A DNA stretch of 20,847 nucleotides from positions 1 through 20,847 of the IMG/VR virus record IMGVR_UViG_3300030116_005518, one strand, 5' to 3'. A model generated the notes under the pieces. The model ran no database searches. It saw only the letters and a program-made list of their open reading frames with translations, and had not been told where the DNA came from. This DNA comes from a virus. The position numbers and the translations under genes are program-made. This document shows, in pieces, positions 2,151 to 18,323 of the stretch. The number at the start of each line of letters is the position of its first letter. Position 1 is the first letter of the stretch.

Positions 2151-2156
2151 ATAAAA

Positions 2157-2164
2157 TATTTATC
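2157..2164 (-). promoter_or_regulatory. T4-type late promoter, GATAAATA
   Basis: The minus-strand octamer GATAAATA differs from T4 TATAAATA at one base. Six nucleotides separate it from the ATG at 2150, so transcription should begin at or next to the start codon. Confidence 0.75.
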
Positions 2165-2168
2165 CTTT

Positions 2169-3953
2169 TTAGCTCAATTCCACTGTTTGTTCGGGCAATG
2201 GGTATTTATTTGTTGCAGTTGTTTGTAATATACCTGCTATTTCAAGCTGCAAATCACAAATTTTCTTTATACATCTGTTAACAACATCAGCAATACATGG
2301 CTCATTAATACCAACAAAATAATTATTATCTGCTGATAAATTAAGAATATGAGTTTCAAATTCTTGTAGATATTGTATATCTGTTAATTGTAACTGACCA
2401 TTTGCTTGATATGTACCTGTTACTTTAGAATGAATATGATCATTAAAAATCATATGATTATATAATAGTTTATATAATGCTTTATTGACCATATAAGAAG
2501 AAATATATTCATCTTTTTCTACATGCACACTAGATAAATCAAAAGTTTGAGTTTTATATAAATCATATACTAAAGTTTTGTAATTAGTTTTTTCATATGG
2601 CTCAATGAATATTTTACCTACTGGTGCATTCGTAACAGGTGGTTCATAAGTAGCAGTAGTTTCTGAACCAAGGAATAATGTTTCTCTGTCTCCGATACCA
2701 GACGCAACGTCAAAGAATGAAAAAGCTTCAGAACCAGAAACAGCAGCCATATTTAAAATATTGTTTGTTTTATATGTACCTATAGATTTATCTGGTCTTG
2801 ATACAAACTTTTTATAGAGGTTAGTTTCAGTTAAAACATAAAAAATGTTATTATTAATTTCTGAGAAAATAATATTTTTAAAAGTTTCGCCTGATACTCT
2901 GTCTGAAAAAGTTAAAGTGTTTAAAAATTGTCCTGATGAATTATATGTTGTCATTTCTCCATCTCGAGAAAGAAGATAAATATCTCCTGAGCCGTGATGT
3001 ACATTAATATCAATATATGTGTCACCGGATAAAGACTTAAATTGATTAGCAATAATTTTGCTTTCTTTCCAATTTAAATTTTTATCAAATATTTTATATC
3101 CACTTAACGCAGGATCTAAAACATAAACATTATCCTCTTTATCAAGAGCAATCTTTTTGGCTGATTTAAATTTAGAATTAATAACTTTAGATGATGTTTC
3201 ACCACCAACAGATACTTCCAAAAATCTACTAATACCAGACAAAGCTGAGCCGTGTGTTAATACACTTTCTACATTTAGCTTGTGAATTAAATTATTATCT
3301 AAGACAAATAGTTTACCATCTTTAGTTGCTTCTACATCTAAAATATTAGTAAATGAAAGATCAGTAACTGTTTCTAAGGTTGTTATACCAGAACCTCCAA
3401 ACCTTTCTACAGGGTCTCTTCCTGCAGTTATGTAAGGAGCTGTACTTGTATGTTCTACTTCTAAAGCTAATAATGTAGTACCATTTTTAACTGGTACAAA
3501 ACCAACAAATCGTGTACCATCAGTATCCTGTACAAAAGCTGCATCTGTAAATCCAGAAAGTACAGTACCATTTGATGCAGCAACATTTGTTACAGCTTTA
3601 GTGTTTGTAGGAGGTGATAAAAATTTAAATCCATTAACTGTAGTTTCTGTACCAATAGCTCCTTCCCAAACTCCATCAAGAGGCATATCATTAATGGCTA
3701 GTTTAGATTGTGCATTAAGATAGAGAAAATTATCATGTAATAAATCTAATTTACTATTAAAGGTTTCTTGTGTGATAAATGTATCATATTCAAAACGTAC
3801 CTGGTCGTAGTTATTTGGTAAAATAATTTGATCAGTTATATATCTGTCTAAATTAAATTTTTCTGCTACTTGATTATCAATATTAGTGCCTGATAATACT
3901 GCTACATCTGGAGCAGCATCTAAAACAGTTCTTTTTGTTAAATCAGTATTCAT
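2169..3953 (-). CDS. structural protein with NHL-like beta-propeller
   Basis: This 594-aa protein is not matched to a named gene. Residues about 195-420 contain repeated blade-like units (GKLFVLDNN..IHKLN, DNVYVLDP..YKIFDKN, GDIYLLSRDGEMTTYNSSG, NNIFYVLTETNLYKKF) typical of NHL/YVTN beta-propellers. The N-terminus (1-110) includes a helical region. The C-terminus (about 455-594) is helix-rich with the segment YLQEFETHILNLSADNNYF. The TAA of the 1221-aa gene overlaps this ATG, and a GGAGG lies 9 nt upstream inside that gene's glycine codons. Co-expression and shared propeller units suggest that the two proteins form one virion structure, perhaps a long fibre or baseplate appendage. That role is inferred. 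Confidence 0.7.
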   Translation of the reverse strand: MNTDLTKRTVLDAAPDVAVLSGTNIDNQVAEKFNLDRYITDQIILPNNYDQVRFEYDTFITQETFNSKLDLLHDNFLYLNAQSKLAINDMPLDGVWEGAIGTETTVNGFKFLSPPTNTKAVTNVAASNGTVLSGFTDAAFVQDTDGTRFVGFVPVKNGTTLLALEVEHTSTAPYITAGRDPVERFGGSGITTLETVTDLSFTNILDVEATKDGKLFVLDNNLIHKLNVESVLTHGSALSGISRFLEVSVGGETSSKVINSKFKSAKKIALDKEDNVYVLDPALSGYKIFDKNLNWKESKIIANQFKSLSGDTYIDINVHHGSGDIYLLSRDGEMTTYNSSGQFLNTLTFSDRVSGETFKNIIFSEINNNIFYVLTETNLYKKFVSRPDKSIGTYKTNNILNMAAVSGSEAFSFFDVASGIGDRETLFLGSETTATYEPPVTNAPVGKIFIEPYEKTNYKTLVYDLYKTQTFDLSSVHVEKDEYISSYMVNKALYKLLYNHMIFNDHIHSKVTGTYQANGQLQLTDIQYLQEFETHILNLSADNNYFVGINEPCIADVVNRCIKKICDLQLEIAGILQTTATNKYPLPEQTVELS

Positions 3954-6900
3954 TAGTAACTTCCTCCGCCTCCTCCGCCTGTTGATGAGCTTGTAGTACC
4001 AGTATCACTCTCTGTTGTAAGATTAATAGTTTCAACTGCAGTTTCTCTACCAGTTAATGTTAATGTATTAACAGTAACACCATCCCAATCTACTTTATTT
4101 AATTTAGTATAAGCAGGAGATATATTTCCAAGATGTTCAATAACCTTATCAACTATTTTACTCTTAAGTGATTCATCTGTTATATTTGAACCACGTACAT
4201 CAATATTATAGAACTCACTCTTTCTACCTGGTACTTTAAATTTAAACGTACGTTCAATCTCATCTATGTAATTTCTATTACCTATAGCCATATCAAACTT
4301 AACTGGCTCAATATTAGTAAGACATCTATAATGAGATTTTAATTCATAATATTGTAAATTTTTGCTGTATAATTTTATATTTGTCAGCTCAACGCCTGCA
4401 ATTTTATGAAAGGAAGGTTGCTTAGTATATTTGTCTAATAAAATATTATGTATATAAGGTGTTGTACCTACAACTAAATTACTATTAAAGACAGGCAAGA
4501 ACGAGAATTTTGTACCACCTAAGCTTATAGTTTGTTGTTCTAATGAATCTACATACAGTTTATAACTTCCTTGTTCAGCGTTAAATGAAATATGGAAGTT
4601 ATGTCTACTATTATCTAAACCAGATGTTGAGAATGTCAATGTATGAGCAGAATAAGCTGCAGTTGCTGTTGATGTATTATACTCATTAACAACACCTATT
4701 TTAAATTTAAGATCATTAGCATCATTACGTCTAAAGCGACGAGCTGTTTCATACCCATTGAACGACTTAACACCTGATAGAGAATCCAAACCGTCAGTCT
4801 GTCCGAGACTATAAACATCTTCTACAGTATCTATAACATTACCAGTATCAAGATTAAGCTTAATAAAGTTACCGCCACCTGATACTTCATTAAATACAAC
4901 AGCATATCCATTATAACCTGTATTGTCAAACTCATAAACAAAGTCAATATTTCTACTATTAAATCCAGAAGGTGTACCTGTTAGAGAGCTAGTAAATAAA
5001 ACATTTCTATCTTTATCTATTTTAGCAACTTTTTGCTCTCCATATAATACCCAAACATTATTACTGTTATCAACATTTACTCCGACTATAGGCTCTTCAC
5101 TAGAGAGCGCTCTAACTACTGTTAGGCTTGATGCACTCATCGCTCTGTCGTATGTCCATATATTATTGTTAGCAATAAACCAAGGATCACCGTCATTATC
5201 AACAGCAAAGTTATTGTTAATAGCACTTATACCTGCTACTGTAGTTTTATAGTCAACTGCGACTACAATTGGATTAGTACCAAATAATGGATGAGAAGAA
5301 ACATTAGGTGCTGCTATTCTTAAACCAGATAGAGCACCACCTCTCATAGTATTGTTATTGCTCTCGTAAAGATTAACTTTAATTACTTCACCGAGATAAT
5401 TATCATCTTGATTTTTAAGATCATACTTAACAACATTAGCTTCAGCTCGAGAATTAAAATCTGTATTAACAGCAGCGTTAGCTGTACTTAATGTACAAAT
5501 ATAGATATTATGTTCATCAATATCCATATCAGATGGTAAACAACCAGTAGCTATTCTTGAGCTTAAATCAATTTTATTTTTTATTACTCCATCGTGATCA
5601 TATTCATATATAACCCATTGATCATCTAAAATATAATAACCGCTAGTTGATGGATTCTTTTTAAATAGCCTAATGTTTTTACCTAGAGTGTGAGTATCAA
5701 GTTTAACGTAATCAGTATTATACGCTTCAACGTTTGTATTCTTAGGAATTAAAAAGGTAGGTGTAACTACTTCTTCATTAAAAACTCCAAAACCATTATC
5801 AATATAATTACCTAATATTTGATGACCGAAAGGTTTAGTCCAATCATCACATTTCATCCAGAAGTTAAGATCAAAAGAGCCTTTATTGTCTACATTTTTT
5901 ATAACTCCATATTCATTGCTATTAAACTCATAACTGTTATCTAAAGGCTGGTCTAATAATGATCCTGAAGCATCTTTATATTCTTCAATACCATCTACGA
6001 TAAGTTTATAGCTACATTTATCAATTATTGTTTTAGAATCATTATTACCGATATGGTGATATGCATATGCCGTACCAGCTTCAAAAACTAAATTACTTCT
6101 TACATCAAATACACTAAAATCTTTTGCAGATAGATAAACTACAAATGAACTCCAATCATCAATAATTTGTACTAAATCAGATGTTAATGCAGCAGTCTTA
6201 GTTAAAAAGCTAGGATTGTAATAACGATCAACCCATACAGATGTACCATTAATATCTCCATTACCTGATAACCAAGAACAAACCCAACTATCATCTGTTT
6301 GAGGCATTAGATTATTTTTATAATCTTCTGTTCTTTTAAGAAAAACTTTATCACTAGTTGCAGGTCTATCTCCTGCTATAGCTCCAGCATCAACAAATTT
6401 AGAATCATGTATACTTAAACGTATATAAGGACTAAATGTATAAGGTATGTGAAAGTATGTTAGCTTATCTGGATGAAAAGATACTTCTTTTGTTCCTGTA
6501 TTATAGCCAGCAAATACATTATGTGTACCTAATTCTTGATTTGTACCGGTATGAAGCTTTGTATATTTTCTGTGAGTAACTATGTCCTCATTAAAGATAT
6601 TATTTTTAGAACCTTTACCTTCTGCATTAAGCTGATTCTTTAATGGAAGAATATCAACATCATAATTATTAGCAGTTATATTATTAAATGTTGTTGTTAT
6701 TATTTTATTATTCTTAAGATCATCAATTGTTTTGCCTAATGCTTTATCAAGTGAGTAATTATTAATACCAGATACATAGCTTGTCCATGTATCATTTAAT
6801 GATAAGGTTGTTGGTGCATAGGACGTTTTACGCAATTCAAAAACAGTATTGTCATTTAAAATGGTCTCATTAGTTGCTGTTCCAGTTGCTATAGCACCTG

Positions 6901-7618
6901 ATAGCTGAGATAGTTTTAATGTATGTAATGCACCGCTATTTTTTCCTGCTGACAATATCCATGTCGTTGATGCATTTCGCATATGTCCAGATAACGTCTT
7001 AAAGAAAGAAATATAACCTGAACCTTCGTCATAAAGATAGTTAAAAATTTGTGTATCTCTATCTTGAGTGGTTGCTACATTACCATCTGATGCACTAACT
7101 GGCAAGACGATTGCGTCTTCAGCAGCTGTTAACATAGACCAGTCTGTACTAACGCCTACGTCTGCTACTGTAAAATATTTTAATGTAGAATTATTTGAGT
7201 TATAATCATATTGACGAATTGCACATTGCTGTTCATCTATTAAGATAACTTCAAAAAGAGAATTAGCATCTAATGTTGTACTTGTTCCTGATAATTGTAA
7301 TATATCTCTATTAGTACCAGCACCATGTAGATATTTGTTTTGATCACGTAATTTTAAAGTTGTAACAATATACTTAGGATATGTTGACTTATTTGTATTA
7401 ACAGTTAATCCGAGATCATTTGTTGTAAAGTCCGTGAGGAAAAACTTATTATAATTATTTGTTGTAGTATCTTCAGCAGCTGAAAGAATATTATTTGATA
7501 TTAATGTTAATAGTCCCTCAGTAAAGTCAGTAGTTTTATCAATAGAGACAAATTCATCATGCGCATATGAAGCACTTAAAGCTTTTGTATTGTCAGTATT
7601 GAAAGGAAATACATCCAT
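3953..7618 (-). CDS. large fibre/structural protein, LamG plus beta-propeller
   Basis: At 1221 aa this is the largest protein in the window. Residues about 578-614 (GSFDLNFWMKCDDW...ILGNYIDNGFGVF) resemble the first strands of a LamG/ConA-like jellyroll. Residues about 965-1097 (HNFHISFNAEQGSYKLYVD..., then VELTNIKLYSKNLQYYELKSHY) resemble its remaining strands. Between them, residues about 660-935 carry propeller-like repeats (DDQWVIYEYDHDG, GDPWFIANNNIWTYDR, NNVWVLYGEQKVAKIDKD). The protein ends in Ser/Thr-rich sequence and six glycines. It starts a late operon directly behind a perfect TATAAATA. By size and context it is likely an adhesin-like fibre or baseplate protein; LamG-type folds often bind glycans. 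The domain calls come from pattern reading. Confidence 0.7.
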   Translation of the reverse strand: MDVFPFNTDNTKALSASYAHDEFVSIDKTTDFTEGLLTLISNNILSAAEDTTTNNYNKFFLTDFTTNDLGLTVNTNKSTYPKYIVTTLKLRDQNKYLHGAGTNRDILQLSGTSTTLDANSLFEVILIDEQQCAIRQYDYNSNNSTLKYFTVADVGVSTDWSMLTAAEDAIVLPVSASDGNVATTQDRDTQIFNYLYDEGSGYISFFKTLSGHMRNASTTWILSAGKNSGALHTLKLSQLSGAIATGTATNETILNDNTVFELRKTSYAPTTLSLNDTWTSYVSGINNYSLDKALGKTIDDLKNNKIITTTFNNITANNYDVDILPLKNQLNAEGKGSKNNIFNEDIVTHRKYTKLHTGTNQELGTHNVFAGYNTGTKEVSFHPDKLTYFHIPYTFSPYIRLSIHDSKFVDAGAIAGDRPATSDKVFLKRTEDYKNNLMPQTDDSWVCSWLSGNGDINGTSVWVDRYYNPSFLTKTAALTSDLVQIIDDWSSFVVYLSAKDFSVFDVRSNLVFEAGTAYAYHHIGNNDSKTIIDKCSYKLIVDGIEEYKDASGSLLDQPLDNSYEFNSNEYGVIKNVDNKGSFDLNFWMKCDDWTKPFGHQILGNYIDNGFGVFNEEVVTPTFLIPKNTNVEAYNTDYVKLDTHTLGKNIRLFKKNPSTSGYYILDDQWVIYEYDHDGVIKNKIDLSSRIATGCLPSDMDIDEHNIYICTLSTANAAVNTDFNSRAEANVVKYDLKNQDDNYLGEVIKVNLYESNNNTMRGGALSGLRIAAPNVSSHPLFGTNPIVVAVDYKTTVAGISAINNNFAVDNDGDPWFIANNNIWTYDRAMSASSLTVVRALSSEEPIVGVNVDNSNNVWVLYGEQKVAKIDKDRNVLFTSSLTGTPSGFNSRNIDFVYEFDNTGYNGYAVVFNEVSGGGNFIKLNLDTGNVIDTVEDVYSLGQTDGLDSLSGVKSFNGYETARRFRRNDANDLKFKIGVVNEYNTSTATAAYSAHTLTFSTSGLDNSRHNFHISFNAEQGSYKLYVDSLEQQTISLGGTKFSFLPVFNSNLVVGTTPYIHNILLDKYTKQPSFHKIAGVELTNIKLYSKNLQYYELKSHYRCLTNIEPVKFDMAIGNRNYIDEIERTFKFKVPGRKSEFYNIDVRGSNITDESLKSKIVDKVIEHLGNISPAYTKLNKVDWDGVTVNTLTLTGRETAVETINLTTESDTGTTSSSTGGGGGGSY
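3963..3967 (-). promoter_or_regulatory. Shine-Dalgarno site inside glycine codons
   Basis: Minus-strand GGAGG, 9 nt before the ATG at 3953, is formed by the GGC/GGA codons of the C-terminal glycine run of the upstream 1221-aa protein. It supports the start at 3953. Confidence 0.75.
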
Positions 7619-7625
7619 CTAAGAA

Positions 7626-7633
7626 TATTTATA
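7626..7633 (-). promoter_or_regulatory. T4-type late promoter, TATAAATA
   Basis: Perfect T4 late octamer on the minus strand, 7 nt before the ATG at 7618, driving the 1221-aa and 594-aa genes. Confidence 0.85.
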
Positions 7634-7662
7634 GGAAGATCCACATTAAGACAATCAATTTA

Positions 7663-8547
7663 TTAAGGTCCGGTAGATACAATTTGCGTTGCTGTAAATG
7701 TACCAGCTGCTATCTCCATAATTATAAACATACTTTCACCATCAAAACGTTCATCATTATTAGAGGTGCTTACACAACGATTTAAATGAAATGTATTTGC
7801 TGATGTATCTACATTCCGTATAGTAGGATGATATGTAACAGGTGTACCTTTACTTGCACCAGGTGCATCTATATGTATTAAATATTGTTCTTCATTAGTA
7901 GTATCAGCATTAGCATCATAATTAGCTTTAAACATATAATGGGCTCGAGAAGTGCCACCTCCCAGTGGGTTATGATCTAATCTATCAATATATGTTGGAC
8001 TACTATAATCTGTACCTGTATCTCGTCTAAAACCAAAACCAAATCTATGATTACTAGCTTCATGGTTTATTTTTGGTAATAGCAAAAATACAGAATTATC
8101 AGCCTTGGGTGTTATTGAAGCTGATAAAGCAGATAATGAATGTATAGCATCATCTTCAAAAGATATTGTCATATGCTCATTTGTTCTAAAGTATATTGTC
8201 TGCAATACAGATCCTACAACTGAGTTTTCAAAATCAGCAACTTCAATTGTATCAACATCTGCACTAACAGCTGATAACTGAGTCAATACATTAACACTAT
8301 TAAGTTTAAGATTCTGATCTACTCCATTATATAAAGCAGCTGTTAAGGTTTTTAATTCTGTTTTATTCTGTGCAATATCATCTGCATGAGCAGAAATAGT
8401 TGTATTAAATGTAGCGTTATCTAATGGAATAAGAACGTTACCAAAATCAATCTTCTGTGTACCGTTAGGTGTATCTATAATGAAAAAATCCCCACTGTTG
8501 ACTTCTTCAACTTCATTCAAATTTGATATGGATGTATTGTTAGCCAT
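7663..8547 (-). CDS. short tail-fibre paralogue A
   Basis: This 294-aa protein shares an N-terminal module with the gene upstream of it (MANN-TSI-NL--VE---GDF----NGT--IDF, residues 1-37). It has a coiled middle (about 45-85) and a C-terminal beta domain with the pattern SALSASITPKADNSVF and a late MEIAAG, as in the other fibre paralogues here. An extra tail (TFTATQIVSTGP) follows. The ATG lies one base after the TAA of the preceding gene, with AGGA just upstream, so translation is coupled. It is probably a receptor-binding tip or minor fibre; the N-terminal module probably docks both proteins to the same partner. Confidence 0.65.
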   Translation of the reverse strand: MANNTSISNLNEVEEVNSGDFFIIDTPNGTQKIDFGNVLIPLDNATFNTTISAHADDIAQNKTELKTLTAALYNGVDQNLKLNSVNVLTQLSAVSADVDTIEVADFENSVVGSVLQTIYFRTNEHMTISFEDDAIHSLSALSASITPKADNSVFLLLPKINHEASNHRFGFGFRRDTGTDYSSPTYIDRLDHNPLGGGTSRAHYMFKANYDANADTTNEEQYLIHIDAPGASKGTPVTYHPTIRNVDTSANTFHLNRCVSTSNNDERFDGESMFIIMEIAAGTFTATQIVSTGP

Positions 8548-8548
8548 G

Positions 8549-9289
8549 TTATCCTGTTATAATTTCCATAACTGTATATGTCGATACCGCAACTGAACTA
8601 TCCATATTATTAGAATCACTGTGAGTATGTGATCTGTTAATATGGATGTCATTTCCACTATGATTAGCAAAAGCAATACCATATGTTTGCTCATCAGTTG
8701 AACCAGGATGATCAATACAAGTAAATGAAACAAGATTACTATCAGCCGCACTATTAACAGTATCTCTAAATGTAACTCCTGGTCTATTGCTTAGATCATC
8801 AGCTTCTATAAAACGATCAAAATTATTTTTAACAATAAGAAATCCGTTGGTTGCTTCTGCCGCGCAGCTATGATGAACACAAACATTTATATGTATAACG
8901 CTATTAGTTTTAGTAGGTGTAATTGCAGCACTTAAACCTTCAATTACGGAAAATGTTGTTTCATTAGATGTAACAGAGAAAGTATCTCTTTTTACTGTGC
9001 TGACAACTTGATTAATTCCCTTTTTAATATCTGCACTAATAGTAGCTACATCTGTTTTTATTGGATTTATAGAACCACTAACAGAATCAATAGATGAACT
9101 TAATCCAGTTATATCTGTTTGCAATCCAGATATTTGAAATCCGTGAGTTGTATTATTATCTCCTAATACAAAATCTTCAAAATCAATAATGCTTGTACCA
9201 TTATCAGCTTCAACAAGAAGAAAGTCACCAGCTTTTATCTCCTCAACTTGAGGTAAATTCTTAATACTAGTATTTTTGTTATCAGCCAT
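8549..9289 (-). CDS. short tail-fibre paralogue B
   Basis: This 246-aa protein has the same N-terminal docking-like module as its neighbour (TSIKNLPQVEEIKAGDFLLV, NGTSIIDF), a helical linker (about 50-95) and a C-terminal domain with SAAITPTKTNSVIHI and the end TYTVMEIITG. The same C-terminal pattern occurs in the plus-strand fibres at 14390-15555. The ATG directly follows two tandem ATAAATA motifs, so this is the first gene of a late operon with paralogue A. A receptor-binding role is inferred. Confidence 0.65.
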   Translation of the reverse strand: MADNKNTSIKNLPQVEEIKAGDFLLVEADNGTSIIDFEDFVLGDNNTTHGFQISGLQTDITGLSSSIDSVSGSINPIKTDVATISADIKKGINQVVSTVKRDTFSVTSNETTFSVIEGLSAAITPTKTNSVIHINVCVHHSCAAEATNGFLIVKNNFDRFIEADDLSNRPGVTFRDTVNSAADSNLVSFTCIDHPGSTDEQTYGIAFANHSGNDIHINRSHTHSDSNNMDSSVAVSTYTVMEIITG

Positions 9290-9304
9290 TATTTATTATT
9301 TATC
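9290..9304 (-). promoter_or_regulatory. tandem late promoter motifs
   Basis: Two ATAAATA copies lie back to back on the minus strand (9297-9303 and 9290-9296). The distal one is 7 nt from the ATG at 9289, the usual spacing here, and includes the TAA stop of the upstream lectin-like gene. The proximal copy touches the ATG and is probably not used as a promoter. Confidence 0.7.
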
Positions 9305-10073
9305 CTGCTGGAGTAGGACTTACAACAGTAAGGGCTGTAAGACTATCTAATATTGTTGTTGCATTAGCGTCATCAACTGTATCACCATAAACACTAAAGT
9401 TCTTAACCCAGCAATTACTTGCTGTTTTACCAGTTGCGAATGACATACCGACATTAAACGTATCAGGTATAGAAGGTACAGAATTATATACTGCATTAGC
9501 TAATGTTGCAGTAGGTTCTAAAACTTGTTCTAAATATGTCTGATAATCACCATTACCATCTTTAATCTCCACTTTAAGAAGCTTACCTTCATTTAAGAGT
9601 CTAACTCTACAACGTTTATACTCAATATCATCTAAACTAGTTAAAGTTTGATGTAATGTTACCGGTGAAGAGAAAGTAGAAAGATTAGGTGTACGAGTAA
9701 TAACAGACCATTTTAAGTCAGCACCACTACGTAAAGTTATAGAATTAGGTTCCGCAATAGATAACCCTTCTGTTGCTGATAATGCAGTTCCATCCCATGC
9801 ACTTAAAGCTCCAGTTTTATAATTTTTGATAGTACCGAACTCTCCACCAATGTCAAACCCAACACCACACCATGCACCTCTTATTCCATTAAATGCTCCA
9901 GATAAATTAAATGTTCTTACACCTACATCACCAACATAGTTTGTATAGCCTAAACTAGTACTCGGACCTGCTGGGGTGAACTTAAAACGGCTATCCCAAA
10001 AGAACACACTAAAACCTTCTGCAGGTGCAGCAGTAGGCAGTGTAGTTAATAAAGGTGTTAGTGATACAGCCAT
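9300..10073 (-). CDS. lectin-like (ConA-type jellyroll) structural protein
   Basis: This 257-aa protein is beta-rich. The stretch AFNGIRGAWCGVGFDIGGEF (about residues 60-79) resembles the GxGxGFDxxGxF core of L-type lectin/ConA-like folds, and later strands (CRVRLLNEGKLLKVEI, FNVGMSFATGKTASNCWVKNFSVYG) fit the rest of such a domain. It has no signal peptide or membrane helix. It follows its own late promoter and lies upstream of the short fibre genes. A glycan-binding virion protein is plausible but unproven. Confidence 0.6.
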   Translation of the reverse strand: MAVSLTPLLTTLPTAAPAEGFSVFFWDSRFKFTPAGPSTSLGYTNYVGDVGVRTFNLSGAFNGIRGAWCGVGFDIGGEFGTIKNYKTGALSAWDGTALSATEGLSIAEPNSITLRSGADLKWSVITRTPNLSTFSSPVTLHQTLTSLDDIEYKRCRVRLLNEGKLLKVEIKDGNGDYQTYLEQVLEPTATLANAVYNSVPSIPDTFNVGMSFATGKTASNCWVKNFSVYGDTVDDANATTILDSLTALTVVSPTPAG

Positions 10074-10079
10074 TTAAAA

Positions 10080-10087
10080 TATTTATG
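10080..10087 (-). promoter_or_regulatory. T4-type late promoter, CATAAATA
   Basis: The minus-strand octamer lies 6 nt before the ATG at 10073. Confidence 0.75.
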
Positions 10088-10108
10088 GCTTAGGCAAGAT
10101 AATGAAAC

Positions 10109-10974: not shown

Positions 10975-11133
10975 TTAATTATCTCTAAGTTTGTCGCGAA
11001 CTTTGTTTAGTGTATCAGTCGCGGCTTTTACTTTATCCATATCTACCTTACCATCTGGTTTTAAAAATGGATTTGGTTTAGGTTTTATTGTATCTGTTGT
11101 TTGTACTGGCAGTTCAGAGTCTACTTTTTTTTT
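10975..11133 (-). CDS. candidate -1 frameshift extension
   Basis: The zero frame of the 187-aa gene ends ATA AAA AAA AAG TAG. In the -1 frame the sequence stays open for 49 more codons, starting VDSELPVQTTDT, through KPKPNPFLKPDGKVD, to a helical end and a TAA touching the next gene's ATG. A AAA AAG is the slippery heptamer of the E. coli dnaX type and occurs right before the stop; GAAGG upstream could act as an internal stimulator. The product would be about 236 aa. Alternatives are an indel in the nine-A run or a separate 20-aa peptide from the ATG in VDMDKV. Confidence 0.6.
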   Translation of the reverse strand, partial: KKKVDSELPVQTTDTIKPKPNPFLKPDGKVDMDKVKAATDTLNKVRDKLRDN

Positions 11134-11684
11134 ATATAAGCCTTCGCGTCAAATTTCTCTGGATCAAACGAAGATGGAGAAGCACCAGACACTTCATCAG
11201 GATTTGGAGGCAGTGCAGCGCCTGGATTAATAGCTCTACCGGCGTCTACTGCCTTCTTACCAACAAAATCTTTAATATCACCGCCTAGTTTTTTCATTCC
11301 ACCACCAAAACTACCAGCTTCTTTAGCCGCGCCACCTAACTTATATATACCATAGCCTGCGCCTGCTAGTGCTGCTAGCTTAGCTGCTTTACCAGCTAGG
11401 TCTCCTGCTTTAGCGAAGAAACCCTTTTCTTTGTGCTCATCTTCACTTAGCGGTACGTAAAGTTTAGACATGACGTTCTCGTAAGCAACATCAAATTTGT
11501 TTAATTGTCTAGTTTCTTCTTTCATTTTTAAATCTTCTTCTTTTTCTTTTTTTGCTTTTTTCTGGGCTTTATGTTGAGCGTATGCACCTTTAACAGCTCC
11601 AACTGCTCCGGCTCCGAGCTGAGCTAATTGAGCTACTGCACCTACAGTAGCTTCATTATTAATATTATTTATATTTTGGCTCAT
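11121..11684 (-). CDS. Ala/Gly/Lys-rich protein, frameshift donor
   Basis: This 187-aa protein is not recognised. It has an Ala/Gly-rich hydrophobic N-terminus (about 14-34), a very basic helix (about 37-58), LNKFDVAYENVMSKLYVPLSE (61-81), a second hydrophobic Ala/Gly stretch (about 97-120) and a proline-rich tail ending in KKK. LSE fits the T4-type prohead protease cleavage consensus. Basic, alanine-rich composition suits an internal head or scaffold-like protein, but this is inference. It may be extended by -1 frameshifting at its end. It diverges from the signal peptidase gene. Confidence 0.6.
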   Translation of the reverse strand: MSQNINNINNEATVGAVAQLAQLGAGAVGAVKGAYAQHKAQKKAKKEKEEDLKMKEETRQLNKFDVAYENVMSKLYVPLSEDEHKEKGFFAKAGDLAGKAAKLAALAGAGYGIYKLGGAAKEAGSFGGGMKKLGGDIKDFVGKKAVDAGRAINPGAALPPNPDEVSGASPSSFDPEKFDAKAYIKKK

Positions 11685-11690
11685 AAAATC

Positions 11691-11704
11691 TATAAGTATT
11701 TAAT
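11691..11704. promoter_or_regulatory. overlapping divergent late-like promoters
   Basis: On the plus strand TATAAGTA (11691-11698) lies 11 nt before the signal peptidase ATG. On the minus strand ATTAAATA (11697-11704) lies 12 nt before the ATG at 11684. Both are one or two bases from TATAAATA, overlap each other, and are farther from their starts than the other late motifs. Confidence 0.45.
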
Positions 11705-11709
11705 CGAAA

Positions 11710-12240
11710 ATGGAATTTAATTTTAAACCTTTACTTTTTAGTAAGTGTTCTATATCTATACTTTTGAGATTATCTATTTTTATGATAGGTGTTTTAGCAC
11801 TATCATATAATACATTTAGGATATTCAAAACAGATGGAAATTCGATGAGCGAAACCTATCATCATGGAGAAAATCTTTTAGTTAATACTCGAGCTTATAA
11901 AGATGAAGATCCAAAAAGATATGATGTTGTTTTAATAGTTGATATAGATAGATTTCTTTTAGGGGATGATTTTATGGTTAAGCGAATAATAGCATTACCT
12001 GGAGAAACTGTTGAGCTTAAAGATGGTATATTTTATGTTAACGGTGAGGTACGTACAGATGATATTTGGAATCATACAATTATAGGGCATTATAATTATA
12101 CAACTGGAGAACTAGAACCAGATCAACCACTTAAATTTAAACTTTTACCAAATGAATATTTTGTTATGGGGGATAACCGTATTGATACATGGTACGGTTG
12201 TGTAGATATTTCAGCTATACTCGGAAAAGTAATTAACTAG
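11710..12240 (+). CDS. phage signal peptidase I (S26)
   Basis: This 176-aa membrane protease belongs to the leader peptidase family, which removes signal peptides on the periplasmic side of the inner membrane. One N-terminal membrane helix (about 14-35) is followed by GNSM with catalytic S45, RYDVVLI (70-76), FMVKRIIALPGETVEL with catalytic K91, and GDNR at 154-157. After GDNR the usual SxDSR segment is missing (the sequence runs IDTWYGCVDIS), so box E is shortened, but the Ser/Lys dyad is intact. It stands alone on the plus strand between minus-strand virion genes. Its substrate is unknown; host envelope proteins or phage lysis or virion proteins are possible. Confidence 0.88.
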   Translation: MEFNFKPLLFSKCSISILLRLSIFMIGVLALSYNTFRIFKTDGNSMSETYHHGENLLVNTRAYKDEDPKRYDVVLIVDIDRFLLGDDFMVKRIIALPGETVELKDGIFYVNGEVRTDDIWNHTIIGHYNYTTGELEPDQPLKFKLLPNEYFVMGDNRIDTWYGCVDISAILGKVIN

Positions 12241-12466
12241 ATAACATTTCTAAAACATGCTGCTTAATTTTTGCATGCTCGATACCTGTGTCATCATTAA
12301 TAACTTGAACATAAACATCTAATGCATCTTTTAAGTTGCGGTAAGCAGCTGGCGTATCTAAAATAGCTTCATGTATTCTAGCATCAACATCACTTTCGTG
12401 CGCTATAGTAGTAGGCTGGTTACCATAGTACGCTTCTAAGATAGTCTTGTTGTCGAAATTATTCAC
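12233..12466 (-). CDS. small unknown late protein, GTG start
   Basis: This 77-aa acidic, helical protein (MNNFDNKTILEAYYG..., ending KQHVLEMLSS) is not recognised. The N-terminus resembles the MNKFD and LNKFD segments of the 150- and 187-aa proteins. A GTG start is chosen because a perfect TATAAATA lies 6 nt upstream. The end overlaps the end of the convergent signal peptidase gene by 8 nt. Confidence 0.65.
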   Translation of the reverse strand: MNNFDNKTILEAYYGNQPTTIAHESDVDARIHEAILDTPAAYRNLKDALDVYVQVINDDTGIEHAKIKQHVLEMLSS

Positions 12467-12472
12467 TATAAC

Positions 12473-12492
12473 TATTTATACCCGAATAAATA
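12473..12492. promoter_or_regulatory. divergent pair of late promoters
   Basis: Minus-strand TATAAATA (12473-12480) is 6 nt from the GTG at 12466. Plus-strand AATAAATA (12485-12492) is 7 nt from the ATG at 12500. The octamers are separated by only 4 bp (cccg), giving a near-palindromic divergent control site. Confidence 0.8.
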
Positions 12493-12499
12493 ATTTTAC

Positions 12500-12664
12500 A
12501 TGCCTTATAAGACAAGAAAAGTAGGTAATAAGACTTGCGTATATAAAAAGCGTGGAGGTAAAAAGATAGGATGTACTTCAGGACCTGTTAAAAAATATCT
12601 AGGTGCATTATATGCCAACGAATCTGCTTTTCCTTCTTTTAAAAAGTTTTATAATATTGGTTAG
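12500..12664 (+). CDS. small basic protein, 54 aa
   Basis: The protein starts MPYKTRKVGNKTCVYKKRGG and ends KKFYNIG. It is rich in Lys and Arg and has two cysteines (KTCVYKK, KIGCTSG) around a GGKK turn, then the helical segment GPVKKYLGALYANE. Small basic proteins of this general pattern recur in marine phages, mostly without an assigned role. The start is supported by AATAAATA 7 nt upstream. The stop overlaps the stop of the convergent spanin-like gene. Confidence 0.75.
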   Translation: MPYKTRKVGNKTCVYKKRGGKKIGCTSGPVKKYLGALYANESAFPSFKKFYNIG

Positions 12665-12966
12665 ATGGAAAGTTTACTTACTGTTGCTTCATATTTCTTT
12701 TTAAAATACAAAGCTTCTGCTTGTCTTAGTTCTATTTCTTTAATAGCTTTTTTCATTACTTCTGTCTGAGCACCAAGTATAACTCTAAAGTTATTATTTT
12801 CCATTTTAACTTTCTTAATCTCATCCAGACGTTTGCCTATTTCTTCTTTATATGCTTTATTAATGTTATTAACTTCAACAACTTTATGCTGTTGTATAAT
12901 CATGCCTGATACAACACCTAGAGAAAAAAGGAGCGCTACTATTAAAATATAACCTTTATCTTTCAT
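12661..12966 (-). CDS. small membrane coiled-coil protein, spanin-like
   Basis: The start is placed at the ATG at 12966 (101 aa) because ATAAATA lies 5 nt upstream; a longer frame from a TTG would run through the promoter. The N-terminus MKDKG is followed by one membrane helix (residues about 5-25, ILIVALLFSLGVVSGMII) and then about 75 residues of charged helix with coiled-coil character (YKEEIGKRLDEIKKVKMENN, MKKAIKEIELRQAEALYFKKKYEA). This is the shape of an inner-membrane spanin, which helps disrupt the envelope at lysis, but the sequence is not diagnostic. No endolysin or holin is visible next to it. Confidence 0.65.
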   Translation of the reverse strand: MKDKGYILIVALLFSLGVVSGMIIQQHKVVEVNNINKAYKEEIGKRLDEIKKVKMENNNFRVILGAQTEVMKKAIKEIELRQAEALYFKKKYEATVSKLSI

Positions 12967-12971
12967 ATTAT

Positions 12972-12988
12972 TATTTATTGTGTAAATA
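12972..12988. promoter_or_regulatory. divergent pair of late promoters
   Basis: Minus-strand AATAAATA (12972-12979) is 5 nt from the ATG at 12966. Plus-strand TGTAAATA (12981-12988) is 5 nt from the ATG at 12994. The octamers are one base apart. Confidence 0.75.
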
Positions 12989-12993
12989 TCGAT

Positions 12994-13191
12994 ATGAAAG
13001 AGCAGCTTCAAATCAAAGGTTGTGATTTAGAAGTTAGATATAGTGAGTCTGGTTTCTGGCAGGAAGATTTGATAGTGTTTTTTAACCCGCCAAAAGATAA
13101 AGATAAAGTACACATTATAGAATATCTTTACGAGGAAGGCTTTATATTAGATCCGAGAACACCTATTCGGATATTAGATCTTGAAGCATAA
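12994..13191 (+). CDS. small unknown late protein, 65 aa
   Basis: This acidic mixed alpha/beta protein (MKEQLQIKGCDLEVRYSES..., IIEYLYEEGFILDPRTPIRI) is not recognised. It starts 5 nt after a late octamer. Its TAA stop lies inside the octamer of the next gene. It precedes the plus-strand fibre cluster. Confidence 0.65.
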   Translation: MKEQLQIKGCDLEVRYSESGFWQEDLIVFFNPPKDKDKVHIIEYLYEEGFILDPRTPIRILDLEA

Positions 13192-13194
13192 ATA
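13187..13194 (+). promoter_or_regulatory. T4-type late promoter, CATAAATA
   Basis: The octamer lies 5 nt before the ATG at 13200 and contains the TAA stop of the upstream gene. It should drive the run 13200-13918. Confidence 0.8.
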
Positions 13195-13199
13195 TTTAC

Positions 13200-13433
13200 A
13201 TGTCAGTTAAGAAGACCCTAGACGGTGTAGTTACTACTGTTAATGCAAATAGTGGTTCTTGGTCTGGTGGTGGTGGTATAGATTCAACAGACATAATTAA
13301 ACAAGCTCCAAATGCATTAGCAGAAGATGTAACTATAACAAGTAACTATAATGCATTTGCGATCGGACCTTTAACTATTAATGATGGTGTAACTGTTACA
13401 GTTAGTGCAAGTGCAGTATTCAAGGTATTATGA
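13200..13433 (+). CDS. small structural/fibre-associated protein, 77 aa
   Basis: After the N-terminal part (MSVKKTLDGVVTTVNANSGS) comes a glycine run (SGGGGI) and a C-terminal beta module NYNAFAIGPLTINDGVTVTV-ASAVFKVL. Such GPLTI-DGVTVTV ends are common in phage tail and fibre proteins as a repeated beta-hairpin unit. It overlaps the next gene by 4 nt (ATGA). It is probably a fibre-attached or virion protein. Confidence 0.65.
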   Translation: MSVKKTLDGVVTTVNANSGSWSGGGGIDSTDIIKQAPNALAEDVTITSNYNAFAIGPLTINDGVTVTVSASAVFKVL

Positions 13434-13918
13434 GTCAACTTAATACAAATATAATTAAAGGAGTTCAAGATAACGATGATGTCGTTATCAAAACAAATAA
13501 TACTACTCGTGTAACATTTGCATCTGGTGGTGATACTCTTGTTACAGCTCTAAGTGCTCCTTCTGTTAGTGCTGTTAATACTTGTAAGGCGTGGGTTAAT
13601 TTTAATGGTCAAAGTACACCAGCGATAAGAACTAGTTATAATGTATCAAGCATTTCTGATGAAGGTACTGGTAGTTATATTATTATTTTTACCCAACCTA
13701 TGACAGATGCTAATTATGTTATTGCTGGTCACAACTCATCTGAAAATTCTACTAGCGGTTCAACTGTGATGAGAGGCTCAAACGGGTTTCATAGTGTAAA
13801 TCCGCAAGCTAGCGGTGCACATATAGTTTGTGCCTATGGGTCTAAGTTTGCTGGTGGTAACTCTGATGGTGCAGCGAATGACGTCTCTATATGTGCTGTA
13901 TCTATATTTGGTAATTAA
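13430..13918 (+). CDS. tail-fibre protein with KAWVNFNG domain
   Basis: This 162-aa protein has an N-terminal coiled or beta region and then, from about residue 53, the pattern KAWVNFNG-STPAIRTSYNVSSI-DEGTGSYIIIFTQPM-DANYV, a domain widespread in marine phage fibre tips. The C-terminal 50 residues (SGSTVMRGSNGF... to VSICAVSIFGN) complete a beta fold. The ATG overlaps the previous stop, and AAGG lies a few bases upstream. The 126-aa protein at 15903 carries a diverged copy of this domain. Receptor recognition is inferred. Confidence 0.75.
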   Translation: MSQLNTNIIKGVQDNDDVVIKTNNTTRVTFASGGDTLVTALSAPSVSAVNTCKAWVNFNGQSTPAIRTSYNVSSISDEGTGSYIIIFTQPMTDANYVIAGHNSSENSTSGSTVMRGSNGFHSVNPQASGAHIVCAYGSKFAGGNSDGAANDVSICAVSIFGN

Positions 13919-13924
13919 TAAATA
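13917..13924 (+). promoter_or_regulatory. T4-type late promoter, AATAAATA
   Basis: The octamer overlaps the TAA that ends the fibre gene and lies 5 nt before the ATG at 13930. It should drive the four-gene run 13930-15555. Confidence 0.8.
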
Positions 13925-13929
13925 ATTTT

Positions 13930-14196
13930 ATGAGCATAGAAGTAAACATGACAAAAGCGAAGGATATCTGGAAAGATAAATGGCGCGCCGTGCGTAAGGA
14001 AAAGCTTGAAGCTCTAGATGTTGACTTTATGAGAGCTGTTGAAGCAAGTGATTCTGACAAACAGAGTGAAGTTGCAACTAAGAAGCAAGAGCTTAGAGAT
14101 GTAACAGACACAGATCTTTCTAATGTATCAACACCAGATAACCTAAAACAAATATGGCCTACATGCTTAGGTGATAAACCAGAGGAGCTTAAATGA
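13930..14196 (+). CDS. tail-fibre assembly chaperone-like protein, 88 aa
   Basis: The order of motifs, KDIWKDKWRAVRKEKLEALDVDF near residues 11-33, a central acidic helix, then KKQELRDVTDTDLSNVSTPDNLKQIWP, matches the W..R..R...LD..........RQ.LRD layout of small phage tail or fibre assembly chaperones. Such proteins help fibres fold and attach and are usually not in the virion. It overlaps the next gene by 4 nt and leads an operon of fibre genes. The family call is by pattern. Confidence 0.6.
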   Translation: MSIEVNMTKAKDIWKDKWRAVRKEKLEALDVDFMRAVEASDSDKQSEVATKKQELRDVTDTDLSNVSTPDNLKQIWPTCLGDKPEELK

Positions 14197-14393
14197 GTGA
14201 TCTAGTAAACAAAAGAGTAATCTTTCCGAATGCAGAAGGTGGTGTATCGGTTCTAATACCAGCACCTAATTGCGGTCTTACATTAGAGCAAATTATTGCT
14301 AAAGATGTACCAGGTGATACATATCAGATTGTTGATAAGTCTGAAATACCATCTGACCGTACTTTCCGTAATGCATGGGAATATAAAGAGTGA
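14193..14393 (+). CDS. small fibre-cluster protein, 66 aa
   Basis: The protein has GGVSVLIPAPNCGLTLEQI, then KDVPGDTYQIVDKSEIPSDR-FRNAWEYK. The IVD-SEIPSDRTFRNAW pattern recurs at the ends of phage tail-fibre assembly or fibre-linked proteins. GAGGAG lies just before the ATG, which overlaps the preceding stop. It may act with the preceding chaperone-like protein. Confidence 0.65.
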   Translation: MSDLVNKRVIFPNAEGGVSVLIPAPNCGLTLEQIIAKDVPGDTYQIVDKSEIPSDRTFRNAWEYKE

Positions 14394-14986
14394 GTAGAAT
14401 TGTTCTAGTAAATCAGTCTTCTACACCAGATGATGCTGGTAGTGGAAATGCGCAGCTATTTGTTGAAGGTAATAAAGTATACAAACAAGTAGGTACTGAT
14501 AGTGCACAAGAATTAACTCGTGGTCTAGTATTACAAGTAAAACAAACCACTTTCACGGACACCTGGACATCGTCAACTGAAACGTTTGTTAATAGTCCCT
14601 TGTCTGCTGTAATTACACCATCATCTACTAGTAGTAAAATATTAGTAAAATGTAGTATGATGCTATTCAGTACATATGTTGGACCACCGATTCGAATTGC
14701 ACGTAAGATAACTGGAGGAAGCCAGACATATCCGATTGTCTCGGATCATTCTACTTATGAGCAAGCTGCTACTATGTGGGCATCTCCTTATGCCGCTTCT
14801 AACTATCACGCAACTAGTACAAACTATAATTATCTTGACTCTCCGTCTACTACTAGCGAGATAGAATATAATATACAGACTCTAGGTCCAAATGGAAATG
14901 CGGGATATATAAACAAAACGACAAACACAAACAACTATTCTTTTTACGGTACTAGCGAAATAACATTAATGGAGATAGCAGGATGA
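14390..14986 (+). CDS. short tail-fibre paralogue C, GTG start
   Basis: This 198-aa protein starts with GTG, overlapping the previous stop by 4 nt. It has an N-terminal docking-like segment (SRIVLVNQSSTPDDAGSGNA, VEGNKVYKQVG), then GLVLQVKQT and a C-terminal beta domain with SAVITPSSTSSKILV and the end EITLMEIAG. The SA-ITPSSTSSKI and MEIAG marks are shared with the 190-aa gene that follows and, more weakly, with the two minus-strand paralogues. It is probably a receptor-binding fibre tip. Confidence 0.7.
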   Translation: MSRIVLVNQSSTPDDAGSGNAQLFVEGNKVYKQVGTDSAQELTRGLVLQVKQTTFTDTWTSSTETFVNSPLSAVITPSSTSSKILVKCSMMLFSTYVGPPIRIARKITGGSQTYPIVSDHSTYEQAATMWASPYAASNYHATSTNYNYLDSPSTTSEIEYNIQTLGPNGNAGYINKTTNTNNYSFYGTSEITLMEIAG

Positions 14987-15555
14987 GTAAAATAATTGTC
15001 AATCAGATTGAGTCATCAGACGGTACTACTGATGTTTTAAACTCATTAAGTGCTGTTAATGTAGCTGGAGCTGGTATGGGTCAGGTATTACAAGTAGCAT
15101 CTACATTCTCTAATACTCATGCAAGTGTTGCTAGTGTAACTCTTACTGATACAGGAGTTTCTGTAAGTATAACTCCATCAAGTACATCGAGTAAAATATT
15201 TTTAACAGTTGATGCTTTTATGGGTTCAAGTAACACTGATAGTAATGGAGGCTTAGCAATTTACAGATCAGCTCCAGGTGGCTCAGCAGGTTACGTAGGT
15301 GTAGGTGATAACGGTAGTAATAATAATCAAACACAAGTTGGAGGTGCTGTGTATGTTAAAGATTCAAAAGGTCAAAATGTAGGGTTAAGTTTTTTAGATA
15401 CTCCAAATACTACTGACCAATGTACATATAAACTTTATTTTAATAGCAGATCAGGAAGCTACACAACATATTTGAACAGGACTCATAGTAATAGTAATAA
15501 TAATTACATGTACGTAGGTGGTACAACAATTACAGCTATGGAGATAGCAGGCTAG
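14983..15555 (+). CDS. short tail-fibre paralogue D
   Basis: This 190-aa protein begins MSKIIVNQIESSDGTTDVLN, different from its upstream paralogue, and continues with GMGQVLQVAST, SVSITPSSTSSKIFLTVDA and a final TTITAMEIAG. YLNRTHSNSNNN resembles INRSHTHSDSNN in the minus-strand 246-aa paralogue. It overlaps the previous gene by 4 nt, with GGAG 8 nt before the ATG. Its TAG stop shares CTAG with the stop of the convergent gene. Confidence 0.7.
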   Translation: MSKIIVNQIESSDGTTDVLNSLSAVNVAGAGMGQVLQVASTFSNTHASVASVTLTDTGVSVSITPSSTSSKIFLTVDAFMGSSNTDSNGGLAIYRSAPGGSAGYVGVGDNGSNNNQTQVGGAVYVKDSKGQNVGLSFLDTPNTTDQCTYKLYFNSRSGSYTTYLNRTHSNSNNNYMYVGGTTITAMEIAG

Positions 15556-15833
15556 TTCTTAAGTTCTTTATTCTCTTTAATTAGATCCTGTATAACAGCT
15601 TGAAGTATATTCTTTTCTTTAATATCTGATTCTATTTGTTCAGCTTGTATCTCTGATATCTCTTTCCAATCAGATATCTCACTCTTTAATTCATCTATCT
15701 TTTCTTCTAAGTCACTTGTATCAGGTACATCTTCTGTTTTATTACCTGCTGCATAACCTGAGATAAATGAAACACCGGCTAGTAGAGTACAGATTAAGAC
15801 GTATTGAACCATCTTTGAATCTTTTGCTTCCAT
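15552..15833 (-). CDS. second small membrane coiled-coil protein, spanin-like
   Basis: The start is set at the ATG at 15833 (93 aa), 5 nt after ATAAATA; an upstream in-frame start would cross that promoter and the structured repeat. MEAKDSK is followed by a membrane helix (about 9-29, VQYVLICTLLAGVSFISGYAAG) and then a long acidic coiled coil (about 40-93) with heptad-like spacing. It resembles the 101-aa protein at 12661 in design but not in sequence. A spanin or other envelope role is possible. It lies antisense within the plus-strand fibre cluster. Confidence 0.65.
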   Translation of the reverse strand: MEAKDSKMVQYVLICTLLAGVSFISGYAAGNKTEDVPDTSDLEEKIDELKSEISDWKEISEIQAEQIESDIKEKNILQAVIQDLIKENKELKN

Positions 15834-15838
15834 ACACT

Positions 15839-15846
15839 TATTTATT
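15839..15846 (-). promoter_or_regulatory. T4-type late promoter, AATAAATA
   Basis: The minus-strand octamer lies 5 nt before the ATG at 15833 and abuts structured repeat copy 1. Confidence 0.75.
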
Positions 15847-15847
15847 C

Positions 15848-15887
15848 GGCCGCATTGCGTAAAATAGCTGCAAGCTAAGGCGGTCCA
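15848..15887 (+). repeat. structured repeat, copy 1
   Basis: The hairpin TAGCT-GCA-AGCTA (15865-15877) is preceded by TGCGT and followed by AAGGCGGTCC. An outer pairing GGCCGC with GCGGTC is possible in this copy. The copy fills the gap between two divergent late promoters. Compared with copies 2 and 3, one stem pair has changed from C-G to T-A. Confidence 0.75.
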
Positions 15888-15888
15888 T

Positions 15889-15896
15889 AATAAATA
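15889..15896 (+). promoter_or_regulatory. T4-type late promoter, AATAAATA
   Basis: The octamer lies 6 nt before the ATG at 15903. Confidence 0.8.
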
Positions 15897-15902
15897 GTTT
15901 AA

Positions 15903-16283
15903 ATGGGAGTTTTTGATACTACACAAGCTAACTGGGGTAGAGCCGCTAATATTAGCGGAACAGCTAAAGTATGGGCAGCATGGGAACAAATAGGTACACA
16001 AGCTTTAAGGGGTAGTTATGGTGTATCTGGTATTGTTGATGAAGGTGTTGGACGTACAACAGTTAACTTTACAACTAATTTTAACAGTCAAGGTGGGTGG
16101 TGTGCTACAGGAGCTTCAAACTTTTACGGATCAAATACCATATCTGCTAGCACGGCAAAATTTGCTACAGTATTTCAAACATGTAGTAGTATATATATCT
16201 ACTGTAATGATGGTGGTACAAACATTGATTCGCATTGGGTTAATTTTGCTGGGTTCGGTCCAAACGATGATCCTATATCATAA
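15903..16283 (+). CDS. fibre-tip protein, diverged KAWVNFNG-like domain
   Basis: This 126-aa protein begins MGVFDTTQANWGRAANIS. It carries KVWAAWEQIGTQALRGSYGVSGIVDEGVGRTTVNFTTNF with small breaks, which aligns by eye with KAWVNFNG..AIRTSYNVSSISDEGTGSYIIIFTQ in the 162-aa protein. The middle (CATGASNFYG, FATVFQTCSSIYIYC) is beta-rich. It is a single gene behind its own late promoter and is followed within about 10 nt by structured repeat copy 2. It is probably a minor fibre or adhesin tip. Confidence 0.65.
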   Translation: MGVFDTTQANWGRAANISGTAKVWAAWEQIGTQALRGSYGVSGIVDEGVGRTTVNFTTNFNSQGGWCATGASNFYGSNTISASTAKFATVFQTCSSIYIYCNDGGTNIDSHWVNFAGFGPNDDPIS

Positions 16284-16292
16284 TTGTCTAAA

Positions 16293-16333
16293 CGGCGCGG
16301 TATGCGTGTATAGCCGCAGGCTAAGACGGTCCC
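16293..16333 (+). repeat. structured repeat, copy 2
   Basis: The hairpin TAGCC-GCA-GGCTA (16311-16323) is preceded by ATGCGT and followed by AAGACGGTCCC. It begins 9 nt after the stop of the fibre-tip gene. No T-run follows, so it is not an ordinary intrinsic terminator. Confidence 0.75.
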
Positions 16334-16389
16334 ATTACTTTTCTCAATATCTAATTAACTTTTATCAATATCACTTTCCGGGATATCAG

Positions 16390-16397
16390 AGTAAGTA
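16390..16397 (+). promoter_or_regulatory. variant late promoter, AGTAAGTA
   Basis: This weak match to TATAAATA lies 5 nt before the ATG at 16403, the same position as the clear promoters. Confidence 0.5.
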
Positions 16398-16402
16398 ATT
16401 AC

Positions 16403-16519
16403 ATGATAGCAGGAATAATGGAGTTTATAGCAGTTATAGGATTTATAATACTTTGCTTTATACATCTAATCATTAACTTATTAACCGGACAAGACGGCCC
16501 TTTATTACCCTTCTGGTAG
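16403..16519 (+). CDS. tiny membrane protein, 38 aa
   Basis: The protein starts MIAGIMEFIAVIGFIILCFI and ends NLLTGQDGPLLPFW. It is one hydrophobic helix (about residues 3-27) with a short polar tail. It is supported by a late-like octamer at the usual spacing and lies between two structured repeats, with copy 3 starting at its stop codon. A holin-like or membrane accessory role is conceivable, but nothing specific is seen. Confidence 0.55.
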   Translation: MIAGIMEFIAVIGFIILCFIHLIINLLTGQDGPLLPFW

Positions 16520-16559
16520 GCGGCCCATGCGTGAGTAGCCGTAGGCTAAGGCGGTTCCC
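16519..16559 (+). repeat. structured repeat, copy 3
   Basis: The hairpin TAGCC-GTA-GGCTA (16536-16548) is preceded by ATGCGT and followed by AAGGCGGTTCCC. It begins at the last base of the 38-aa gene's stop codon and lies 30 nt upstream of the next late promoter. Confidence 0.75.
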
Positions 16560-16588
16560 AAGGTTCTTAAGATATCCCCGGTAGATAG

Positions 16589-16596
16589 AATAAATA
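16589..16596 (+). promoter_or_regulatory. T4-type late promoter, AATAAATA
   Basis: The octamer lies 5 nt before the ATG at 16602. Confidence 0.8.
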
Positions 16597-16601
16597 GTTA
16601 C

Positions 16602-17121: not shown

Positions 17122-17154
17122 ACCGGGAGTTATACCAATAGCTTCCGGTTTTTT
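17122..17154 (+). terminator. intrinsic terminator of plus-strand late genes
   Basis: The stem ACCGGGAG/CTTCCGGT (one G-T pair) with a 12-nt loop is followed by six T. It lies 40 nt after the stop of the 159-aa gene. Confidence 0.8.
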
Positions 17155-17312: not shown

Positions 17313-17350
17313 GGGCTGTCTAGAGCAAACCACTCAACTCTAGACAGCCC
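17313..17350 (-). terminator. 13-bp hairpin after RadA-like gene
   Basis: A perfect inverted repeat, GGGCTGTCTAGAG with CTCTAGACAGCCC and a 12-nt loop, starts 12 nt downstream of the RadA-like stop. On the minus strand it is followed by CCTGTACTTTC rather than a T-run. It may end or protect the early mRNA; a protein-binding site is another reading. Confidence 0.6.
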
Positions 17351-18321: not shown

Positions 18322-18323
18322 GC

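Follow-up and report, generated by a model that had tools for sequence, protein, structure and literature searches.

Promoters fused to start codons and predicted leaderless mRNAs in an uncultured T4-like phage

Late transcription of phage T4 is a textbook case, with mRNAs that carry leaders and Shine-Dalgarno (SD) sites. How do the first genes of operons start translation when a promoter of the same type ends only a few nucleotides (nt) before the start codon? This question is raised by a stretch of 20,847 nt from an uncultured T4-like phage (IMG/VR virus record IMGVR_UViG_3300030116_005518, positions 1 to 20,847; the window), which contains TATAAATA-like octamers, the feature by which T4-type late promoters are recognized. 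An earlier sequence-only reading had listed fourteen octamers fused to starts and had proposed that leaderless translation is the standard mode for first genes. The results described below make it very likely that T4-type late promoters and host-type early promoters drive leaderless or near-leaderless mRNAs, with SD-free starts, for most of the promoter-proximal genes.

Placement of the late octamers

All fourteen late sites were read off the sequence and then measured by script, and each octamer was indeed present 5–7 nt before its start codon (Table 1), which is ATG at 13 of the 14 sites and GTG at the other one. Twelve of the sites contain ATAAATA; the remaining two are the variants TGTAAATA (start codon at 12994) and AGTAAGTA (16403).

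In an AT-rich phage, this pattern could be due to chance, and the overall number of octamers is not above expectation: the window contains 17 copies of ATAAATA compared with 16.3 in shuffled sequences, and, with one mismatch allowed, 102 copies compared with 94 expected. The placement, however, is far beyond chance. Twelve of the 17 copies are followed, after 5–7 nt, by a start codon (ATG in 11 cases, GTG in one), and the other five lie within open reading frames (ORFs) or directly beside another copy. The 11 copies before ATG compare with 0.89 ± 1.0 in 300 Markov shuffles of the window, the largest value being 4. Thus, the octamer is non-random in its placement, but not in its overall abundance. 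For an unbiased view, every 7-mer located 5–7 nt before the first ATGs of ORFs of at least 40 amino acids (aa) was counted. ATAAATA ranked first in the window (11 observed, 0.06 expected), in the sequences around 80 gp55 genes on IMG/VR contigs (41 versus 0.98), and in G013 (10 versus 0.10), a 59-kb relative that was picked up by scanning viral contigs for the conserved early promoter described below (IMG/VR contig 3300002408_002157, L095). In T4, the leaders at that position are SD sequences.

The octamer-to-start distances have a sharp mode in the gp55 contigs: 44 of 94 are exactly 5 nt, none is 4 nt, and two are 6 nt. Six AT-rich control 7-mers have no comparable peak at 5 nt in these contigs. 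A wider listing of the loci comprises 87 fused sites (79 different N-termini, 71 with T at position −1). A usable octamer was present at 49 gp55 loci, of which 33 have a 5-nt site and 21 a leadered site. The pattern is therefore repeated in independent contigs, and an origin by chance is hardly credible; AT-richness as its source is ruled out by the 7-mer ranking and the 5-nt mode.

Predicted transcription starts of late and early genes

In T4, the octamer spans positions −13 to −6 (PMC2988020), so that, counted from its end, transcription starts at the sixth base. With a spacing of 5 nt, this base is the A of the start codon. Because the spacing in the window is 5–7 nt, the predicted late leaders are 0, 1 or 2 nt long. 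An A occupies the sixth position at 12 of the 14 window sites, independent of the length of the spacer, which is suggestive of a start there, and in 43 of the 44 near-start sites of the gp55 contigs, where the preceding base is T in 41. The same A is common in leadered late promoters (T4, 17/26; Mosig, 15/22; Melnitz, 15/18; S-CRM01, 18/20). In leadered promoters the start codon cannot influence the sixth base, so that the A found there points independently to +1, and, since this A is shared, the +1 inferred from leadered promoters would coincide with the A of the start codon in the fused ones.

SD-like strings are present at only two of the 21 fused late starts of the window and G013, in contrast to the leadered late starts of T4 (23/26), Melnitz (17/18), Mosig (16/22) and HTVC008M (5/5). 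At a spacing of 5 nt, the octamer fills positions −13 to −6, that is, the place of an SD site. As there would be no room for an SD site on the mRNA, and the octamer would occupy its place even on read-through RNA, the first genes are expected to start without SD pairing. The claim that downstream operon genes instead use overlaps or SD sites holds for most of them, with start/stop overlaps or SD-like sequences (3953, 8547, 10525, 14193 and 14983).

Alternatively, the octamers could be late promoters with scattered starts, and translation could proceed mainly from read-through RNAs via termination-reinitiation. Such a mode would fit the spacing, which is 5–7 nt and not a single value, and the octamers at 13187 and 13917, which overlap the stop codons of the upstream genes in tightly packed runs. 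However, the divergent first genes (12466−/12500+ and 12966−/12994+) have no adjacent upstream gene on the same strand to which they could be coupled, and SD sites would be missing at these starts on read-through RNA as well. We consider this explanation improbable.

The early genes lead to the same position by a different route. Sigma70-like early promoters are located before small genes on the minus strand, at the right side of the window (Table 1). All five fused early starts are ATG, separated from the end of the −10 box by 6 nt in four cases and by 7 nt in one; from the geometry of sigma70 promoters, the early +1 is predicted to be the A of the ATG or a base adjacent to it. In G013, 24 of 42 sigma70-like promoter matches are located exactly 6 nt before an ATG, and in the gp55 contigs 38 matches are found at 6 nt, compared with six at 5 nt and nine at 7 nt. 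No such 6-nt spike was present in T4 or S-PM2. The late and the early promoters differ in their offsets to +1, and yet both lead to the start codon, which suggests that the start of the RNA is positioned, and not that a sequence preference near the start codon is seen. This shared end point is the strongest argument for a positioned RNA start. Together with the span of the T4 octamer, the A at the sixth base and the 5-nt mode of the gp55 contigs, the early class supports the earlier proposal that late mRNAs start at or next to the start codon, and both the late and the early first-gene mRNAs of the window should begin at, or at most two bases from, the start codon.

AT-rich sequences right before start codons can favour SD-free initiation. 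It could be argued on this general ground that the octamer is a translation signal, either an unstructured or S1-binding enhancer or an A-rich context of the Bacteroidota type, and that the transcripts begin further upstream. Yet the same octamer is found 18–30 nt upstream of starts in T4, where SD sites are present, and in cyanophages; the AT-rich control 7-mers lack the 5-nt spike; and TTG-17-TATAAT keeps its own 6-nt spacing, which is predicted by promoters with different offsets, but not by one translation signal. An explanation by a translation signal is thus quite improbable.

If both promoter classes drive leaderless or near-leaderless mRNAs, as we favour, late transcription would depend on a late sigma factor similar to gp55, with which the host RNA polymerase would read the octamer and begin the mRNA of the first gene at the A of its start codon or 1–2 nt before this A. 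For early transcription, the host sigma70 polymerase would recognize the −10 hexamer and start 6–7 nt after the −10 box, on the A of the ATG or close beside it. The ribosome would probably recognize the 5′-terminal AUG of the first genes directly, and the downstream genes of each operon would be served by SD sites and stop/start overlaps.

Several points limit this reading or weigh against it. The +1 and the leader lengths are predictions from promoter geometry, and leaders of 1–2 nt would be near-leaderless. The spacing is 5–7 nt in the window and G013, and 8–10 nt also occurs in the relative G001, so that +1 cannot always be the A of the ATG. One start is a GTG (12466), the predicted +1 of one early promoter falls on an ATA, and another early promoter is 18 nt away from its ATG. 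For the promoter with ATA (19235–19263), the start could be non-standard, the start codon could have changed, or there could be a short leader that lacks an SD site. No gp55 gene turned up in the window or in G001, G003 and G013, all of which are fragments. In addition, T4 and the cyanophages mostly have leaders of 18–30 nt, and the pelagiphage isolates are mixed. The sequence-only reading therefore has to be modified in two respects: the fusion of promoter and start at 5–7 nt is real, but it is not strict in the sense of one value, and leaderless translation as the standard for first genes is supported in the window, but it would include early genes and does not extend to all T4-like phages.

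Further sequence elements accompany the promoters. A GTTCCTCC block follows the −35 box of the early promoters (CTTGAGGTTCCTCC; 18293–20472, minus strand) and is also found in G013; it looks like an operator or the site of an extra factor, beyond the sigma70 contacts. The intergenic repeat TAGCNGNAGGCTAAGRCGGT is present in three copies (15865–15884, 16311–16330 and 16536–16555), each shortly upstream of a gene with a late promoter. Folding of the three copies was not above that of shuffled sequences; the repeat may mark the boundaries of gene cassettes or serve in their shuffling.

Table 1. Predicted late and early promoters of the window and their distances to start codons
Feature	Positions	Strand	Distance to start and remarks
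Late octamer GATAAATA	2157–2164	−	6 nt before ATG 2150, S74 tail-fibre gene 1059–2150; identical in the 99% identical record L102
Late octamer TATAAATA	7626–7633	−	7 nt before ATG 7618
Late octamer GATAAATA	9297–9304	−	7 nt before ATG 9289; second copy AATAAATA abuts the ATG
Late octamer CATAAATA	10080–10087	−	6 nt before ATG 10073
Late octamer TATAAATA	12473–12480	−	6 nt before GTG 12466
Late octamer AATAAATA	12485–12492	+	7 nt before ATG 12500
Late octamer AATAAATA	12972–12979	−	5 nt before ATG 12966
Variant octamer TGTAAATA	12981–12988	+	5 nt before ATG 12994
Late octamer CATAAATA	13187–13194	+	5 nt before ATG 13200; overlaps stop codon of preceding gene
Late octamer AATAAATA	13917–13924	+	5 nt before ATG 13930; overlaps stop codon of preceding gene
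Late octamer AATAAATA	15839–15846	−	5 nt before ATG 15833
Late octamer AATAAATA	15889–15896	+	6 nt before ATG 15903
Variant octamer AGTAAGTA	16390–16397	+	5 nt before ATG 16403 (38-aa ORF); weakest site
Late octamer AATAAATA	16589–16596	+	5 nt before ATG 16602
Early promoter TTGCAG-17-TACAAT	18293–18321	−	Exception: 18 nt to ATG 18274 (ATPase gene)
Early sigma70-like promoter TTGAAG-17-CATAAT	18483–18511	−	6 nt before ATG 18476
Early promoter TTGAGG-17-TATACT	18706–18734	−	6 nt before ATG 18699
Early promoter TTGAGG-17-TATAAT	19235–19263	−	In-frame ATA at predicted +1; first ATG 19213, 15 nt further on
Early promoter TTGAGG-17-CATAAT	19461–19489	−	6 nt before ATG 19454
Early promoter TTGCAG-17-CATAAT	19710–19738	−	6 nt before ATG 19703
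Early promoter TTGCAG-17-TATAAT	20444–20472	−	7 nt before ATG 20436

Distribution of the fused layout and known leaderless systems

Seven isolates were compared with the window: T4, S-PM2, P-SSM4, S-CRM01, Melnitz, and the pelagiphages HTVC008M and Mosig. Octamers at a distance of 5 nt are most frequent in HTVC008M (9/20, among them those of the genes at 6268, 19444, 31120 and 49748), followed by Mosig (7/37), Melnitz (3/26) and P-SSM4 (2/31), with one each in S-PM2 and S-CRM01 and none in T4. To judge from these counts, T4-like aquatic phages differ in how far they make use of the fused layout. In the window and in G013, where 11 of 18 late octamers are located 5–7 nt before an ATG, it is found at most promoters, with a slightly looser spacing. 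The distances in G001 are 6–10 nt; its homologue of the gene at 10073 has GATAAATA 10 nt before the ATG, and that of the gene at 9289 has ACTAAATA 6 nt before the ATG. G013 also encodes a nicotinamide phosphoribosyltransferase (L121:15491–17032).

Late promoters of T4-like cyanophages are already known (PMC2984593). The window has the octamer sequence and the preference for A at the predicted +1 in common with T4-type late promoters (TATAAATA, gp55/gp33/gp45) and with the cyanophage NATAAATA. The difference lies in the start codon, which is mostly 18–30 nt past the octamer in T4, S-PM2, P-SSM4 and S-CRM01, but 5–7 nt past it, without an SD site, in the window.

The Thermus thermophilus phage phiYS40 uses host sigmaA −10-like promoters. 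As summarized in PMC3594737, which cites Sevostyanova 2007, its middle and late transcripts are usually leaderless, so that, by this account, leaderless mRNAs are usual for a class of phage genes, as in the window. The window differs in its T4-type late octamer and in the inclusion of early genes, and its leaders are predicted, whereas those of phiYS40 were measured. The cI mRNA of lambda is also leaderless, with a 5′-terminal AUG as predicted here, but it represents a single gene, and not most promoter-proximal genes. Bacterial TA-led leaderless genes (PMC3160421) and the −10 motif next to ORFs in Deinococcus-Thermus (PMC12340547) resemble the window in that the −10 element precedes the start codon by about 12 nt; these, however, are cellular genomes with the host sigma only, whereas in the window each of the two promoter types has a spacing that fits it. 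Leaderless phage mRNAs are thus already known, as are −10 boxes beside ORFs in several bacterial phyla. In the open literature, to which the search was confined, no report was found of leaderless T4-type late mRNAs or of leaderless use by both temporal classes. In a study of pelagimyophages, the prediction of late promoters failed (PMC7029224); fused promoters, which are missed by methods that expect a leader, may partly explain this.

The same type of promoter that has leaders in T4 would thus be used leaderless in aquatic relatives, including phages of SAR11, which are abundant bacteria of the ocean, and early promoters would follow suit. For such phages, this suggests a rule for calling starts and promoters: the octamer plus 5 nt, or TATAAT plus 6 nt, should be the ATG. 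It also raises the testable question of how first genes without a ribosome-binding site capture ribosomes, and whether a phage bS21 has a part in it. The isolate HTVC008M, in which fused late promoters occur, encodes the ribosomal protein bS21 (L090:41228–41431), and a late sigma factor, a sliding clamp and a putative late transcription factor are annotated in its genome. One might speculate that a T4-like aquatic lineage turned leaderless for most promoter-proximal genes, early and late alike, and that the host ribosome may be retuned by such phages, so that messages with a 5′-terminal AUG are preferred during infection, an idea that we regard as rather doubtful. As HTVC008M and Mosig are cultured with the host HTCC1062, the predictions can now be tested in pelagiphages.

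Gene content and other features of the window

Besides an S74-chaperone tail-fibre gene, the window carries genes for a signal peptidase, a KaiC/DnaB-type ATPase and a PD-(D/E)XK exonuclease, the family of which occurs in T4-like phages. No hallmark T4 genes were found in this fragment, including the gp23-type major head protein; a T4-type major head protein is present in the relatives G001 and G013. The exonuclease is 67% identical (aa) to that of G001, and the gene 9300–10073 has a homologue there with 38% aa identity. Protein look-ups in IMG/VR with the genes 9300–10073, 16602–17081 and 17363–18274 returned, at most, the 99% identical record (L086/L102), a DNA search of the window against named phages gave no match, and Rfam and tRNA scans found nothing.

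The signal peptidase gene (S26; 11710–12240), in a tailed phage, lacks a fused octamer and runs divergently from 11684. Its best matches, with 37–40% identity, are from Firmicutes and others and are uninformative as to the host. Between the convergent late and early blocks, a strong hairpin followed by a T-run (17122–17155) and a second, very stable hairpin (17307–17354; z −4.7) are probably back-to-back terminators, and the GC content shifts from 34% to 41% near this hairpin region (17122–17354). Very small predicted membrane proteins of less than 40 aa, outside the list of 40-aa ORFs, are encoded at 18902–19004 (minus strand) and 16403–16519.

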